Below, piece by piece: positions 17,806 through 23,988 of a stretch of DNA of 64,000 bases. Under the pieces are notes generated by a model that saw only the letters and a program-made list of their open reading frames with translations, made no database searches and was not told the origin of the DNA. The number at the start of each line of letters is the position of its first letter. Within the stretch, counting starts at the first letter, position 1. The DNA is from Enhydrobacter aerosaccus (GTDB taxonomy: Bacteria > Pseudomonadota > Alphaproteobacteria > Reyranellales > Reyranellaceae): contig NZ_FUWJ01000002.1 of the NCBI RefSeq assembly GCF_900167455.1, positions 1,116,305 through 1,180,304 of the forward strand. Reading direction: 5' to 3'. A program made the position numbers and the translations under genes.

Positions 17806-18129
17806 GGACCCGAACTTCGGTCGCCGAGAGCGTCCGGTAACGGCCCGAAGCAGACTCCGCCCTACAACTTGAGATTGCTGCACTCAACAATGCGGAGAAG
17901 CCGGTGCTCGCAGACAGCAGGCTTGTCAGCCCAGAATTTGACCAAATGGACAAGAAAATTTGCCCACTTATCAAGCGTATGGCAAGATTTTCCGGGATGA
18001 TGCCGAATGGCCTGTGGCGGAGGAGCAGTGTCCCGGCTGGCATTTCGGTTGCATATCAGCCCTCGACGCGTCCATTTCGGCGCACGGTTGCGATCGGCAG
18101 CCAACGGCAAACGAGGAAAGGGAGACGAG
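17806..18129 (+). other. Intergenic leader of the BMP transporter operon (no gene)
   Basis: This 324-base gap holds no convincing coding sequence. Its middle (about 17930-17995) is markedly more A/T-rich than the surroundings and contains a near-perfect palindrome, annotated separately. TTGCCC at 17960 could be a -35 box, but the -10 candidate 17 bases on is poor. GGGAG just before 18130 is the operon's ribosome-binding site. Confidence 0.6.
17938..17953. promoter_or_regulatory. Palindromic candidate operator for the BMP transporter operon
   Basis: TTGACCAAATGGACAA is an inverted repeat: TTGaCCA and TGGaCAA match in 6 of 7 positions around an AA centre. It lies in the A/T-rich part of the gap, about 177 bases upstream of the substrate-binding-protein gene. 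The size and symmetry resemble GntR-family operators. No regulator gene is adjacent, so the binding protein is unknown. Confidence 0.35.
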
Positions 18130-19155
18130 ATGGGAGTTTTCAAAGCCGGGCGCGCGATCGTCGCGCCACGTCGCGCCGTGTTGCGCGCCGCCGCCGCGAT
18201 GGCCGTTGCTGGCGCGCTGCCCGCCTGGGCGCAGAGCGTGAAGGGCAAACTGAAGGTTGCCGGCATCTACACCGTTCCGGTCGAACAGCAGTGGGTCGGC
18301 CGCATCCATACGGCCCTCAAGGCTGCGGAGGCCCGTGGCGACATCGATTATGTCTGGGCGGAGTCCATCGCCAATACGGACTATGAACGGGTGATGCGCC
18401 AATACGCCGAGGGCGGCCAGCAGCTGGTGTTCGGCGAGGTGTTCGGCGTGGAACGTGCCGCCCGCACTGTGGCCAAGGATTATCCCAAGACCGCGTTCGT
18501 CATGGGTTCGAGCTTCAAGCCACAGGAACCGAACTTCTCGGTCTTCGACAACTACATCCAGGAGCCGGCCTATCTCACCGGCATGATCGCCGGCGGCATG
18601 ACCAAATCGAACATCATCGGGATGGTCGGGGGCTATCCGATCCCCGAGGTCAACCGCCTGATGAATGCCTTCATGGAGGGAGCCAAGGAGGTAAACCCGC
18701 AGGTGAAGTTCCTCGTCGGCTTCATTGGCTCGTGGTTCGATCCGCCCAAGGCCAAGGAAGCAGCTTTCGCCATGATCGACCGCGGCGCGGACGTGATGTA
18801 TGCGGAACGCTTCGGCGTGTCGGATGCCGCCAAGGAGCGCAAGGTGTTGGCGATTGGCAACGTGATCAATACCCAGCCGCAATATCCGGATACCGTCGTC
18901 GCCAGTGCGCTGTGGCACATGGAACCGACGGTGGACCGCGCGATCGCGGCCGTGAAAGCGGGAACCTACAAGGCCGAAGATTACGGCCCGTACAGCCGGA
19001 TGGAGTACAAGGGCTCTAGCCTTGCTCCCTTGGGAACCTTCGAATCCAAGGTTCCGGAGGCGCTGAAGGAAAAGGTCAAGGCGCGCGAGCAGGAGATCCT
19101 TGCCGGCAAGTTCACGGTCAAGGTGAACGACGCCGAGCCGAAAGCGACGATGTGA
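18130..19155 (+). CDS. BMP-family ABC transporter substrate-binding protein
   Basis: Periplasmic solute receptor of 341 residues in the basic-membrane-protein (BMP/PnrA) family, which binds nucleosides and related bases. A twin-arginine-like signal (APRRAVLRAAAAM, then a hydrophobic stretch ending ALPAWAQ) replaces the lipobox seen in Gram-positive members. I start at ATG 18130 because GGGAG lies just ahead; the frame is open to 18007, but that extension spoils the signal peptide. Family segments visible include AYLTGMIAGGMTKSN and GMVGGYPIPEVNR. It is the first gene of a five-gene operon with an ATPase, two permeases and a CodA-type deaminase, which points to cytosine-type bases or nucleosides as ligand. 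Confidence 0.92.
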   Translation: MGVFKAGRAIVAPRRAVLRAAAAMAVAGALPAWAQSVKGKLKVAGIYTVPVEQQWVGRIHTALKAAEARGDIDYVWAESIANTDYERVMRQYAEGGQQLVFGEVFGVERAARTVAKDYPKTAFVMGSSFKPQEPNFSVFDNYIQEPAYLTGMIAGGMTKSNIIGMVGGYPIPEVNRLMNAFMEGAKEVNPQVKFLVGFIGSWFDPPKAKEAAFAMIDRGADVMYAERFGVSDAAKERKVLAIGNVINTQPQYPDTVVASALWHMEPTVDRAIAAVKAGTYKAEDYGPYSRMEYKGSSLAPLGTFESKVPEALKEKVKAREQEILAGKFTVKVNDAEPKATM

Positions 19156-20729
19156 CGGCGGCGTCCGCGTCACGCTCGCTCTCCACCAAAGGTAAGCCGG
19201 AGGTCGTCCTCCGGCTTACCGGCATCACCAAGCGCTTCGGTCCGCTGCTTGCCAACGACGCGATCTCGTTGACGTTGCATGCCGGCGAGGTCCTTGCCTT
19301 GCTGGGAGAGAACGGCGCCGGCAAGACAACCTTGATGAATATCCTGTTCGGCCATTACGTCGCCGAACAGGGCACCATCGAAGTCTTTGGCCGCCCTTTG
19401 CCGCCAGGCTCGCCGCACGCCGCACTGGAAGCCGGCATCGGCATGGTGCACCAGCATTTTACCCTGGCAGACAACCTGTCAGTGCTGGACAACGTCGCGG
19501 TCGGCACCGAATCGCTGTGGCGCCTCCGATCGGATCGGAGGGCCTCACGGACACGCTTGCTGGAGCTGGCACAACGGTTCGGATTGGACGTGCGCCCCGA
19601 CGCGCTCGTGGCGGACCTGTCGGTCGGCGAGCGACAGCGCGTCGAGATCCTGAAAGCCCTCTATCGCGATGCTCGCATCCTCATCCTGGACGAACCCACG
19701 GCGGTCCTGACGCCCCAGGAAGCGGCCGGCCTGTTCGAGACATTGGGGCGGCTGACAGCCGATGGCCTGGCCATTGTCTTCATCAGCCACAAGATGAACG
19801 AAGTTTTCGCGGCCAGCGATACGGTCGCCGTGCTGCGCGCCGGCAAGCTGGTCGCCACCCACGCAACGAATAGCACCGACCGCGCCAAATTGGCGGAGCT
19901 CATGGTCGGCCGAACGGTGACACCCCCCGCCCCCCTGCCGCTCCTCGCCGGCGATCCGGTGCTGGATCTGTCTCGGGTGACGGTGGTTTCTGGCCATGGC
20001 CAACCCTTGCTGGATGCGGTGGACCTGACCGTGTGCCGACATCAGGTCGTTGGCATCGCCGGCGTATCGGGCAACGGTCAGACAGCGCTGGCCGAACTGG
20101 TCAGCGGTTTGAGCGCCCCCGACTCCGGACGCGTAACGATCAAGGGCGTTGGCGTCGAGCGGGCCGATCCGAAGGCCATGGTCCATCGCGGCGTGGCGCG
20201 GATCCCCGAGGACAGGCACAGCGCCGGCCTCGTCGGCGCCATGACGGTATGGGAGAACCTGATCGGCGAACGCTACCGTGACCGCGCGTTCTCGCGGTTC
20301 GGCATCTTGCGCCGCAGCGCCGCCCGCACTTATGCACGCGAGGTGATCAAGGACTTCGACGTTCGCTGCCCTGGACCGGATGCGCGCACGCAGCTCTTGT
20401 CGGGCGGCAACATGCAGAAGCTCATCCTCGGCCGAACGCTTGCCTACAGGCCGGATCTGATCCTGGCCAGCCAGCCTACACGCGGCTTGGATATCGGCGC
20501 GGTGTCCTACGTCCACGGTCGACTGCTGGAGGCACGGGCCGCCGGTGCCGGCGTGCTGCTGATTTCCGAGGACCTGGACGAGATCCTGGCTCTGGCCGAC
20601 AGGATTGCGGTGATCCATCAGGCCCGGCTGACTCCACTTCTGCCAAACGGCCATGTGTCGATCGGCCAGCTCGGCCTGCTGATGGCCGGTCACTGGGACA
20701 TCCTTCCGGAGATTCTCGATGCGGCTTGA
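19152..20729 (+). CDS. ABC transporter ATP-binding protein, nucleoside/sugar (YufO/RbsA-like) type
   Basis: Cytoplasmic ATPase of 525 residues with two fused nucleotide-binding domains. The first has a full Walker A (GENGAGKTT), signature LSVGERQ and Walker B ILILDEPT. The second has the degenerate P-loop GVSGNGQT and signature LSGGNMQK, as is normal for this transporter class. The start is a GTG at 19152 overlapping the receptor gene's TGA by 4 bases, which implies coupled translation. It powers the two permeases encoded immediately downstream. Confidence 0.93.
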   Translation: MTAASASRSLSTKGKPEVVLRLTGITKRFGPLLANDAISLTLHAGEVLALLGENGAGKTTLMNILFGHYVAEQGTIEVFGRPLPPGSPHAALEAGIGMVHQHFTLADNLSVLDNVAVGTESLWRLRSDRRASRTRLLELAQRFGLDVRPDALVADLSVGERQRVEILKALYRDARILILDEPTAVLTPQEAAGLFETLGRLTADGLAIVFISHKMNEVFAASDTVAVLRAGKLVATHATNSTDRAKLAELMVGRTVTPPAPLPLLAGDPVLDLSRVTVVSGHGQPLLDAVDLTVCRHQVVGIAGVSGNGQTALAELVSGLSAPDSGRVTIKGVGVERADPKAMVHRGVARIPEDRHSAGLVGAMTVWENLIGERYRDRAFSRFGILRRSAARTYAREVIKDFDVRCPGPDARTQLLSGGNMQKLILGRTLAYRPDLILASQPTRGLDIGAVSYVHGRLLEARAAGAGVLLISEDLDEILALADRIAVIHQARLTPLLPNGHVSIGQLGLLMAGHWDILPEILDAA

Positions 20730-21768
20730 ACCGCGCGCCGACAGCCCTCTTTCCCTCCAGTTGATCGCGCCCCTCGGAGCAATAGCGGCGGCACTCGCGC
20801 TCTGCGCGGTGCTCGTCGCGTGGACCGGGGCGCCGGTGCTGCGCGCCTACGGACTGCTGATCGAGGGGGCGCTGGGCTCGCGCTTCGCGCTGACCGAGAC
20901 GCTCACCCGGGCAACGCCTCTGATCCTGACCGGCCTCGCCGCGGCTGTCGCCTTTCGGGCCAAGCTCTGGAACATCGGCGCGGAAGGGCAGCTCTACATG
21001 GGCGCGCTGACGGCCGTGATCCTGGGAGGCGGGATGATCGATCTGCCGGCGGGGTTGCTTGTCCCCCTCGTGATGCTGGCGGCGATGGCAGTGGGCGGGG
21101 CGACCCTTCTCGGGCCGGCGGTGTTGAAGGTCCGCTTCGGCGTCGACGAGGTGGTGACCACGCTGCTCCTGAATTTCGTCGTGCTGCTGTTGGTGTCGAT
21201 GCTGCTCGAGGGGCCGTTGAAGGACCCGATGGGAATGGGCTGGCCGCAATCGGCGCCAGTGATCTCTGCCGCGGAACTACCGAAGCTGATCGCCCGTACG
21301 CGCCTGCATGCGGGATTGGCCATCGCCGTGGGATTGGCGATCCTGCTGTGGTTGATCGATACGCGCACCATCTGGGGCTATGAGAACCGCGCGGTGGGCG
21401 CCAATCCTCGGGCCGCCGCCTTCGCCGGTATGCCGGTGACCTGGATCATGCTGCGCACGGCGCTGCTGTCGGGCGGCCTGGCTGGACTGGCCGGTGCGGC
21501 CGAAGTCTGCGGGCTCAAAGGCTATCTGACACTCGATCTGTCGCCGGGCTTTGGCTATAGCGGCATCGTCGTCGCCATGCTGGCGCAGCTGCATCCATTG
21601 GGCGTGGTCGGCGCGGCTGTATTCATCGCCGCCATCTTCGTCGGAGCCGACGCGATGAGCCGGGCGATGCCGATCCCGAACTACATCGCCGACGTGATGG
21701 TTTCCACGAGCCTGCTGTGCATGCTCGTTGCCGGCTTGCTGGTGCGCTACCGGTTACGGCGCGGATAG
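20719..21768 (+). CDS. ABC transporter permease, nucleoside type (BPD_transp_2)
   Basis: Integral-membrane permease of 349 residues with about 8-10 hydrophobic segments. Family landmarks include LTRATPLILTGLAAAVAFRA, FRAKLWNIGAEGQ (the cytoplasmic coupling region) and DEVVTTLLLNF. It is a YufP-like member of the BMP-associated permease family. The ATG at 20719 lies inside the end of the ATPase gene (11-base overlap). It should pair with the next permease to form the translocation channel. Confidence 0.92.
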   Translation: MRLEPRADSPLSLQLIAPLGAIAAALALCAVLVAWTGAPVLRAYGLLIEGALGSRFALTETLTRATPLILTGLAAAVAFRAKLWNIGAEGQLYMGALTAVILGGGMIDLPAGLLVPLVMLAAMAVGGATLLGPAVLKVRFGVDEVVTTLLLNFVVLLLVSMLLEGPLKDPMGMGWPQSAPVISAAELPKLIARTRLHAGLAIAVGLAILLWLIDTRTIWGYENRAVGANPRAAAFAGMPVTWIMLRTALLSGGLAGLAGAAEVCGLKGYLTLDLSPGFGYSGIVVAMLAQLHPLGVVGAAVFIAAIFVGADAMSRAMPIPNYIADVMVSTSLLCMLVAGLLVRYRLRRG

Positions 21769-21775
21769 AAAAGAC

Positions 21776-22699
21776 ATGGATATCGTCGCGACCCTCCTCG
21801 ACACCCTGATTTCCGCTGCTTTCTGGACGGCGGTGTTGCGCATCGCCACTCCGTATGTGCTGGGAACGCTCGGCGAGTTGATCTGCGAACGGGCCGGCGT
21901 CCTCAATCTCGGCATCGAAGGCATCATGACCCTGGGCGCGATGGCCGGTTGGATGACCGTCTATCAAGGCGGCGGGCTTTGGGCCGGTGTTCTGGCCGCA
22001 GCGGCCTGCGGAGCCTTGTTCGGCCTGCTGCATGCCGCACTGACCGTGCCTCTGGGCCTGTCGCAGCACGTTACCGGCATCGGCGTGACGCTGCTGGGCA
22101 CCAGCCTGTCCTCCTTCGTCTATCGCCTCGTCCTGCCGCAGGCCAGCACGCCCCCGACCATCGTTCCCTTCCAGCCATTGCCTCTGCCGGGCGCGCTGGC
22201 GCAGACGCCGCTGACCTACTCGGCCTTGGCGCTGGTGGGCGGAATTGCCTATGTCCTTTATCGCACCCCGGTCGGGCTGGCGGTCCGGATGGTCGGCGAG
22301 AATCCAGCCGCCGCCGAAGCGCAAGGCCTCAACGTCACAGCGCTGCGCGTAGGAGCGGTCATGGCGGGGAGCGCCCTGATGGCATTGGCGGGTTCCTTCC
22401 TCACGCTCTCGGCCTTCAACGCTTTCTTCTTCAATATGGTGAACGGGCGTGGCTGGATCTGCATTGCGTTGGTCGTTTTCGCCTCGTGGCGACCGGGGAA
22501 GGCTCTTGTTGGCGCCCTCCTGTTCGCCGTCTTCGACGCCCTGCAAGTGCGCTTGCAGCAAGCGTCCGGTGGTGTGTTGCCGTATCAGGTCTTCCTCATG
22601 ATGCCCTATCTGCTCAGCATCCTGGCGCTGGTGCTGGTTGCGCGCCGCGCCTCCTACCCTCATGCGCTGATGGTTCCATACCGCAAAGGAGAGCGCTGA
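21776..22699 (+). CDS. ABC transporter permease, nucleoside type (YufQ-like)
   Basis: Second integral-membrane permease, 307 residues, with about 8 hydrophobic segments. The motif TLGELICERAGVLNLGIEG is the classic signature of this subfamily. I start at ATG 21776, 7 bases after the previous stop; the frame is open to 21728 but that part overlaps the previous gene. Its TGA shares a base with the ATG of the deaminase gene. With the upstream genes it completes an importer. Confidence 0.92.
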   Translation: MDIVATLLDTLISAAFWTAVLRIATPYVLGTLGELICERAGVLNLGIEGIMTLGAMAGWMTVYQGGGLWAGVLAAAACGALFGLLHAALTVPLGLSQHVTGIGVTLLGTSLSSFVYRLVLPQASTPPTIVPFQPLPLPGALAQTPLTYSALALVGGIAYVLYRTPVGLAVRMVGENPAAAEAQGLNVTALRVGAVMAGSALMALAGSFLTLSAFNAFFFNMVNGRGWICIALVVFASWRPGKALVGALLFAVFDALQVRLQQASGGVLPYQVFLMMPYLLSILALVLVARRASYPHALMVPYRKGER

Positions 22700-23988
22700 T
22701 GTTCGATCTCGTTCTGCGCGGCGCTTCCTTGCCTGACGGCCGCAGCGGCGTCGATATCGGTATCCGGGATGGACGCATCATCGCGGTCGAGTCGGCGCTG
22801 GCCGGCCAGGCAGGCCAGGAGATCGATGCAAACGGCCGGCTGGTCACGCCGCCCTTTGTCGATGCGCATTTCCATATGGATTCGACCTTGAGCTACGGGC
22901 TGCCGCGCGTGAACCGGTCCGGCACGCTCCTGGAAGGCATCGAGCTGTGGGGCGAACTGAAGCCACAGCTCGTTCAGGAGGCCATCGTCGAGCGGGCGCT
23001 GGCCTACTGCGATTGGGCCGTGGCGCGGGGGCTGCTGGCGATCCGCAGTCACGTCGATATCTGCGATCCACGCCTCCTGGCCGTCGAGGCATTGCTGGAG
23101 GTGAAGAAGCGGGTCGCCCCCTATCTCGACCTTCAGCTGGTGGCCTTCCCGCAGGACGGCGTGTTGCGCTCGGCGGGCGCGAAGGACCAGCTGGTCCGCG
23201 CGCTCGACCTCGGCGTCGATGTCGTCGGCGGTATTCCCCATTTCGAACGGACCATGGCCGAGGGCGCCGCCTCGGTTCGGCTGCTATGCGAGATTGCCGC
23301 CGCGCGTGGATTGCTGGTCGACATGCATTGCGACGAGAGCGACGACCCGCTGTCGCGTCACGTCGAGACCCTGGCCTGCGAGACACAGCGGCTGGGCCTG
23401 CAGGGCCGGGTGACGGGCTCGCATCTCACCTCGATGCACTCGATGGACAACTACTACGTCTCGAAGCTGATTCCGCTGATGGCGGAGGCGCAGCTTGGCG
23501 TGGTCGCCAACCCGTTGATCAACATCACTCTGCAGGGGCGTCACGATACCTATCCAAAACGCCGCGGCATGACGCGCGTGCCCGAGCTGATGGCGGCCGG
23601 GCTTACGGTGGCATTCGGGCACGATTGCGTCATGGATCCCTGGTATCCGCTCGGATCAGGCGACATGCTCGACGTGGCAAACATGGGCCTGCATGTCGCG
23701 CAGATGACCGGCCAGGAGGGCATGAAGGCCTGTTTCGACGCCGTCACGATCAATGCCGCGCGGCTCCTGCATCTCGATGGCTACGGCCTTGCGCCCGGAT
23801 GCCACGCCAATCTCGTGGTGCTGCAGGCCGGCAACCCGGTGGAGGCAATCCGGACCCGGGCAACGCGCCTGTTCGTGGTGCGGCGCGGCCGGATCGTCAG
23901 CCGATGCGAGCCAGCGCGCGCAGCACTGAACCTGCCGGAACGCCCGGCAAGCGTCGATTTTACGTTCGGCCCGACCCGGCCCGTTTAG
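22699..23988 (+). CDS. CodA-family amidohydrolase with Asp314-to-Cys change; probable 5-methylcytosine/cytosine deaminase
   Basis: Amidohydrolase of 429 residues, close in length to E. coli cytosine deaminase CodA (427). All catalytic positions appear at a constant offset of minus 4 from CodA: H57 and H59 (metal), Q152, H210 (metal), E213, H242 and D309. The downstream DPWYPLG motif is also kept. The residue matching CodA Asp314 is Cys310 (TGC at 23626-23628). CodA homologues lacking that aspartate, described from Klebsiella, Rhodobacter and Corynebacterium, deaminate 5-methylcytosine to thymine. I therefore infer a 5-methylcytosine or broad cytosine deaminase, acting in the cytoplasm on what the linked importer brings in. 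The TGATG overlap with the permease gene couples the two. Isocytosine, isoguanine or other pyrimidine-like substrates remain possible. No CodB symporter is nearby. Confidence 0.85.
   Translation: MFDLVLRGASLPDGRSGVDIGIRDGRIIAVESALAGQAGQEIDANGRLVTPPFVDAHFHMDSTLSYGLPRVNRSGTLLEGIELWGELKPQLVQEAIVERALAYCDWAVARGLLAIRSHVDICDPRLLAVEALLEVKKRVAPYLDLQLVAFPQDGVLRSAGAKDQLVRALDLGVDVVGGIPHFERTMAEGAASVRLLCEIAAARGLLVDMHCDESDDPLSRHVETLACETQRLGLQGRVTGSHLTSMHSMDNYYVSKLIPLMAEAQLGVVANPLINITLQGRHDTYPKRRGMTRVPELMAAGLTVAFGHDCVMDPWYPLGSGDMLDVANMGLHVAQMTGQEGMKACFDAVTINAARLLHLDGYGLAPGCHANLVVLQAGNPVEAIRTRATRLFVVRRGRIVSRCEPARAALNLPERPASVDFTFGPTRPV

Follow-up and report, generated by a model that had tools for sequence, protein, structure and literature searches.

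A CodA-type deaminase with cysteine at the discriminating position ends a predicted nucleobase-uptake operon and probably acts on cytosine

The gene analysed here lies on a 64-kb stretch of DNA, which we call the window. It probably encodes a metal-dependent cytosine deaminase that ends a nucleobase-uptake operon and supplies uracil to a reductive and a URC degradation route, with 5-methylcytosine (5mC) as a probable additional substrate; we assign this reading a probability of about 0.72. The protein is an ordinary but informative cytosine deaminase and represents no new kind of system. The argument rests on the following features of the window:

17938..17953, no strand assigned, RutR-type operator candidate TTGACCAAATGGACAA, a near-palindrome differing at one position from the E. 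coli RutR consensus
18130..19155, plus strand, BMP-family (PnrA-like) substrate-binding protein (Pfam Bmp, 9e-37; nearest to 3s99 and AtzT 6pi5)
19152..20729, plus strand, ABC transporter ATPase with two ATP-binding domains (Pfam ABC_tran in two stretches; overlaps the preceding frame)
20719..21768, plus strand, ABC transporter permease 1 (Pfam BPD_transp_2, 2.4e-36)
21776..22699, plus strand, ABC transporter permease 2 (Pfam BPD_transp_2, 6e-35)
22699..23988, plus strand, predicted CodA-type cytosine deaminase with Cys310 at the position of CodA Asp314 (NF005748, match to 1k6w, residues)

The deaminase frame, open from the ATG at 22699 up to a stop whose last base is 23988, encodes 429 amino acids. 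Its HMMER alignment with the CodA chain 1k6w is near full-length (E = 1.9e-113) and runs, beyond a two-residue gap near its beginning, at an unchanging offset of 4; given an E value of 1e-113 to a solved CodA, the CodA fold is not in doubt. The residues H57, H59, Q152, H210, E213, H242, D309 and C310 are all present in the translation. At the offset of 4 the first seven coincide with H61, H63, Q156, H214, E217, H246 and D313, the metal/catalytic set of CodA in the numbering of the sequence-only reading, and place the protein among the CodA-type amidohydrolase deaminases. Cys310, encoded by TGC at 23626, lies opposite the Asp at chain position 314. Both the seven catalytic residues and the Cys in place of Asp314 had been proposed from the letters alone, and both are borne out by the translation and by the alignment to 1k6w. 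Cys310 is neither a sequencing nor an alignment accident, because the identical eight residues, Cys included, recur in 80/80 of the nearest loci, i.e. the best 80 of at least 590 confirmed ones among at least 597 stretches from a named genome collection. The site has been varied before, as the CodA chains 1r9y, 1r9z and 1r9x carry Ala, Ser and Gly at it, respectively. E. coli CodA (1k6w, 3o7u; PRK09230) shares with the window enzyme the metal/catalytic residues and the DPWYPLG stretch; it differs in Asp314 versus Cys310, in belonging to a separate clade, and in its transport partner, the CodB permease instead of an ABC importer.

Among the family models the deaminase clearly belongs to NF005748 (PRK07572, ‘cytosine deaminase’), which it matches over profile positions 1-422 of 426, scoring 814 bits (cut-off 438). 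In contrast, it stays below the cut-off of the E. coli CodA model PRK09230 (439.8 versus 483 bits), and with Cys310 it lacks the Asp at 314 characteristic of that subfamily. Absence of the discriminating Asp314, a feature of the 5mC deaminase class, is seen in the window enzyme with its Cys310 as in the Klebsiella member of that class, which has Ser. The PRK07572 cut-off is also passed by an Asp enzyme (L127, 483.6 bits) and a Ser enzyme (L133, 458.2 bits), so that the Cys clade constitutes the high-scoring core of this subfamily and not the whole of it. In a phylum sample, 57/299 genomes contain an NF005748-type match at E 1e-100. Scores of at least 737 bits are reached in 32 of the 57; the other 25 lie at 421-484 bits, and 19 of these exceed the PRK07572 cut-off. 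The 20 loci fetched from the lower-scoring part of this list include Asp and Ser enzymes.

The distribution of the residue was followed in a wider set of 185 loci whose homologue reaches E 1e-20 or better; this set contains the window twice and at least one further duplicate. The residue signature with Cys is found in 150/185 loci, and one further Cys locus (L147) carries H57Q and an internal stop. Ser occupies the position in 14/185, comprising two loci of the window's genus (L145 and L146, 73-75% identity), eleven grouped with Klebsiella and one uncertain case (L124); Asp is present in 10/185, and the remaining 10/185 are distant homologues with other residues. Within the window's clade as sampled, Asp was not found at position 310, which is occupied by Cys or rarely Ser. 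Cys310 marks a large clade, where it is the usual state, and is not peculiar to the window gene. The distant homologues include a second copy in the window's own genome (L002, G000:C5:16406-17635; about 30% identity) with Leu at the place of Gln152 and Asn at 310.

A tree was calculated from 66 hand-chosen rows, including 36 Cys rows out of those available, by a quick IQ-TREE run with SH-aLRT values only and without bootstrap. The window falls into a clade on a long branch, made up of 36 Cys rows and one Ser row (SH-aLRT 100), in which its nearest relatives are from Azospirillum (about 86-87% identity). A separate group (98) unites nine Asp rows including E. coli CodA with twelve Ser rows including 4r7w, which we take to be the Klebsiella pneumoniae 5mC deaminase Kpn00632 (listed in the PDB table as cytosine deaminase); the window clade thus stands apart from the Klebsiella-type 5mC deaminases. 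The placement of a long Asp row (L144) and a long Ser row (L124) is unsure, the program warning of long branches meeting, and the homologues of about 30% identity form the outgroup. An origin from the triazine enzymes AtzC/TrzC was considered and rejected: AtzC matches at 3.9e-45 compared with 1.9e-113 for CodA, and the tree also argues against it. Such kinship had been named beforehand as an observation that would speak against a 5mC deaminase, and it did not appear, the AtzC-type matches being much weaker.

The alignment of 174 sequences in which group-specific positions were compared excludes the distant homologues, both copies of the window and L146, whose sequence is too short, and treats L145 apart. 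At 18 further positions, each at least 85% conserved per group, the Cys group is unlike both the Asp and the Ser groups, for example with L78 for Phe, L243 for Thr and M249 for Tyr. At positions 178 and 256 it has the residue of the Ser group rather than that of the Asp group; at 273 and 275 the reverse holds. Kpn00632 (4r7w, 4r85, 4r88) basically resembles the window enzyme in lacking Asp at 314, in the catalytic set and in G178 and K256. It differs in having Ser instead of Cys, TES instead of LIN at 273-275 and Gln instead of His just before the catalytic Asp, as well as in being grouped with the Asp enzymes. On account of the 18 differing positions and the mixed agreement elsewhere, the Klebsiella result is not transferable by one residue alone.

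Homologues from Klebsiella, Rhodobacter and Corynebacterium that lack this Asp reportedly deaminate 5mC to thymine, which E. coli CodA is said to be unable to do (work attributed to Hitchcock, 2014). The Rhodobacter enzyme may be close to the window gene: Rsp0341 of Rhodobacter sphaeroides, said to have been characterised as a 5mC deaminase, probably lies in the window's Cys clade, as judged from the genes of near relatives (G402, G509 and G518). C. sphaeroides itself was not found among the overlapping sets of 149, 18 and 394 genomes, the best identity of the kdsA plasmid stretch being 86%. Three of the four genomes nearest to it by kdsA (G509, G402 and G518, 84-86%; the fourth is G675) each contain one clade gene with Cys, 63-65% identical to that of the window and directly preceded by two permease genes, and one distant homologue. 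In the Klebsiella 5mC deaminase the discriminating position is occupied by Ser, and CodA gains 5mC activity when this Asp is exchanged for Ala, as stated in excerpts of PMC6186785; the latter result supports carrying 5mC activity over to the window clade. Since Cys takes the place of the discriminating Asp, we consider it likely that the window deaminase accepts 5mC.

The sequence-only reading had proposed 5mC and probably also cytosine as substrates. One step beyond it would be a dedicated 5mC deaminase, whose operon would import 5mC released from decaying methylated DNA and feed the resulting thymine into the reductive pathway, cytosine being a secondary substrate. The disappearance of Asp314 from the whole clade seen (Cys, or Ser in two same-genus relatives), the Ser-type residues at 178 and 256, the Klebsiella and CodA results from the same excerpts (PMC6186785) and the Cys clade genes in the three near relatives of the Rhodobacter source of Rsp0341 are consistent with this proposal, as are PreA and dihydropyrimidinase in the own genome, which can take thymine. 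However, the Asp-type residues at 273 and 275, the 18 positions shared with neither group and clade members lying near upp, URC1 and URC4 of the uracil route argue against it, and we regard it as unlikely.

The genomic neighbourhood of the relatives was surveyed by tblastn with identified families, which replaced a generic ORF-based clustering discarded as noisy because of antisense frames. As matches were accepted anywhere in loci of unequal length, the counts are lower bounds, and a match near the deaminase does not prove a shared operon. The family assignments were verified with one or two examples per family, for which a few dozen neighbour proteins were scanned; confirmed in this way were Upp, a URC1-like GTP cyclohydrolase II (PRK07198) and DUF1688, whereas the RutR-like TetR protein of L011 scores 193 bits, below the RutR cut-off of 368. 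At least two of upp, URC1 and URC4 accompany the deaminase in at least 15 of the best 80 loci (L011, L012, L013, L014, L015, L018, L020, L030, L040, L041, L049, L052, L057, L070 and L071), often together with a RutR-like gene, and 7 of the 15 also contain the complete importer. A RutR-like gene is found in at least 11 and PreA in at least 4 of the best 80 loci; by tblastn, 50 of them have neither a complete importer nor two URC genes. PRK07198 and DUF1688 are presumably the counterparts of yeast URC1 and URC4. The URC pathway works through uracil phosphoribosyltransferase, and Upp acts on uracil and is not expected to accept thymine. Because the Upp/URC neighbours need uracil, the deaminase substrate in those genomes should be cytosine. 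Excerpts of PMC7530994 describe the URC pathway from uracil as running via URC6, URC1 and URC4. An association of URC1, URC4, DUF1688 or RutR with cytosine deaminase was not found in the titles and abstract openings of the papers listed, which does not establish its absence from the literature.

A derivation of 5mC specificity from Cys310 alone was therefore rejected as too strong, since this residue is near-constant in the clade and the neighbours in at least 15 of the best 80 loci demand uracil. Of the candidate 5mC deaminase put forward by the sequence-only reading, the acceptance of 5mC stands as likely, given the missing Asp and the Asp to Ala exchange in CodA (excerpts of PMC6186785). 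As a headline it gives way to the separate clade, the 18 positions and the uracil-degrading partners, and that 5mC is the main job of the enzyme appears unlikely. The surroundings rather point to cytosine as the main substrate, with 5mC as a plausible additional one. One discriminating residue is usable for predicting 5mC deaminases; because the Cys clade is partly found among uracil-degrading genes, prediction from this residue alone would name too many dedicated 5mC enzymes.

The gene order in the window suggests how the substrate might reach the enzyme. The frame of the binding protein is mechanically open from 18007, and its likely start is the ATG at 18130 behind AGGAAAGGGAG, followed by a signal-like N-terminal segment containing R-R. 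Permease 2, mechanically open from 21728, likely starts at the ATG at 21776, and its stop shares base 22699 with the ATG of the deaminase (TGATG). In this arrangement the deaminase is the last gene of a tight operon of five, the other four encoding a BMP-type ABC importer. The full set of importer genes is found near the deaminase in at least 22 of the best 80 loci (tblastn), a lower bound because 23/80 loci are shorter than 17,000 bases. In Rhodovulum sp. P5 (L120:3175-9236) a clade deaminase follows an ABC importer annotated as polyamine-type, not BMP; the transporter partner thus changes within the clade.

The nearest solved structures of the binding protein are 3s99 and AtzT (6pi5). As reported in excerpts of PMC6834077, AtzT binds free bases with a preference for purines: guanine (0.11 uM) and adenine (2.5 uM) are bound far more tightly than thymine (620 uM) and cytosine (800 uM). 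When its pocket was matched by hand (chain number + 5 corresponding to the number in the paper), Glu165 and Trp194 were retained in the window protein and Ser97, Asn218, Asn220 and Tyr45 were not. As the pocket is only partly retained, the bound base may differ; the importer likely carries a free base, and which one it takes is uncertain.

The purine-binding relatives of the binding protein also lend some plausibility to another substrate (isoguanine, creatinine or a triazine, for instance) and to the import of a purine-like base. The enzymes of the CodA cluster are promiscuous, s-triazines included, according to excerpts of PMC12828455; the annotation of E. coli codA reads cytosine/isoguanine deaminase; and hydantoinase and M20 hydrolase neighbours alone would suit other ring compounds as well. 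This possibility is nevertheless judged very improbable, as the AtzC-type match is far weaker (3.9e-45 versus 1.9e-113), the homologues of about 30% identity are placed in the outgroup, and the recurrent neighbours upp, URC1, URC4 and PreA are pyrimidine genes. Creatinine in particular is considered unlikely because of this pyrimidine gene context, as judged from the few dozen neighbour proteins scanned.

Cytosine as the main substrate is compatible with the pathways encoded elsewhere in the window's own genome. PreA (710 bits, cut-off 335) is located behind a preT-like oxidoreductase gene, which matches wider oxidoreductase models only and stays below their cut-offs, and after PreA comes an M20 hydrolase of the allantoate/hydantoinase-carbamoylase type. 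About 5 kb on from this cluster lies a dihydropyrimidinase (588 bits, cut-off 393). A RutR-like gene, 55% identical to that of L011, is arranged divergently from the preT-like gene. The URC route is represented by URC4/DUF1688 (467 bits) with Upp (275 bits) beside it and, on a different contig, a URC1-like gene (748 bits, cut-off 403). The reductive pathway could take thymine besides uracil. With a reductive and a URC pathway in the same genome, both uracil and thymine have a likely outlet.

Consistent with the gene content, we propose the following scenario. The periplasmic binding protein would capture a free nucleobase, which the BMP-type ABC importer would bring into the cell, where the deaminase would hydrolyse cytosine to uracil and ammonia. 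Uracil might then enter the reductive pathway (PreA, dihydropyrimidinase, carbamoylase) as well as the URC pathway (Upp, URC1, URC4). Conversion of 5mC to thymine would probably be catalysed by the same deaminase, and the reductive pathway could process the thymine. The operon may be controlled by a RutR-like repressor that is relieved by uracil or thymine. Points that speak against this scenario are the 50 of the best 80 loci with neither a complete importer nor two URC genes, the weak binding of cytosine by AtzT, the low scores of the RutR-like protein of L011 and of the preT-like gene, and the failure to find the operator at related importer loci and at the URC genes of the own genome. The Cys clade also ties a cytosine deaminase to the little-studied bacterial URC genes and to a nucleobase-type ABC importer, for both of which it offers testable roles.

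The regulatory step of this scenario is based on the operator candidate at 17938-17953, scored against the E. coli RutR consensus and located 176 bases before the likely start of the binding protein. It is the sole match with at most one mismatch in the 64 kb, where 0.01 is expected; up to three mismatches, the window contains 3 matches against 1.22 expected, a number reached in 11/100 shuffles and therefore unexceptional. In the own genome the motif recurs with one mismatch between the RutR-like and preT-like genes and with two at the dihydropyrimidinase start; it was not found in the fetched stretches with URC4-upp and URC1 (L209, L211). Among 16 of the 22 loci with all four importer genes (22 among the best 80), 0/16 contain the motif at up to 2 mismatches in the 400 bases ahead of the binding-protein match (the best sites have 4-6 mismatches), and a RutR-like operator is not a general rule for importer loci. 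Elsewhere in the relatives it occurs at the URC1 start (L011, L012, L020), before upp (L032) and before the deaminase (L125); in L032, which is outside the tested 16, upp lies ahead of the importer genes. Up to 2 mismatches, the best 80 loci contain 8 matches, 4 of them at URC1/upp starts (L011, L012, L020, L032) and the other 4 elsewhere (L035 and three in L071). Since 30 control motifs with shuffled halves reach 0 to 7 matches in the same 80 loci, the count of 8 is weak evidence by itself, and more significance attaches to where the matches lie. Excerpts of PMC10891134 describe the RutR box as a palindrome of approximately 16 bases, and the reference list of that paper cites RutR as a uracil/thymine sensor.

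Combining these elements into a RutR-controlled operon for 5mC scavenging, in which the BMP importer would bring in 5mC, the Cys310 deaminase would convert it to thymine and the reductive pathway would yield nitrogen, seems improbable to us. If true, it would be a pathway devoted to importing and breaking down a methylated base of DNA, and many proteobacteria would have its relatives.

The deaminase gene has a patchy distribution. It is present in 57/149 genomes of another alphaproteobacterial family (E 1e-60) and in only 4/61 genomes of the window's own genus, the window included. Identities to Azospirillum amount to 86-87% for the deaminase and 82-90% for the importer genes. Kinship with Azospirillum together with the patchy presence suggests that deaminase and importer were gained horizontally. 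A plasmid collection yielded 377 records with a match at E 1e-40. The other copies in the genus are variable: L145 and L146 have Ser at 310, and two of the three (L146 and L147) contain an internal stop, which may reflect decay or an assembly error.
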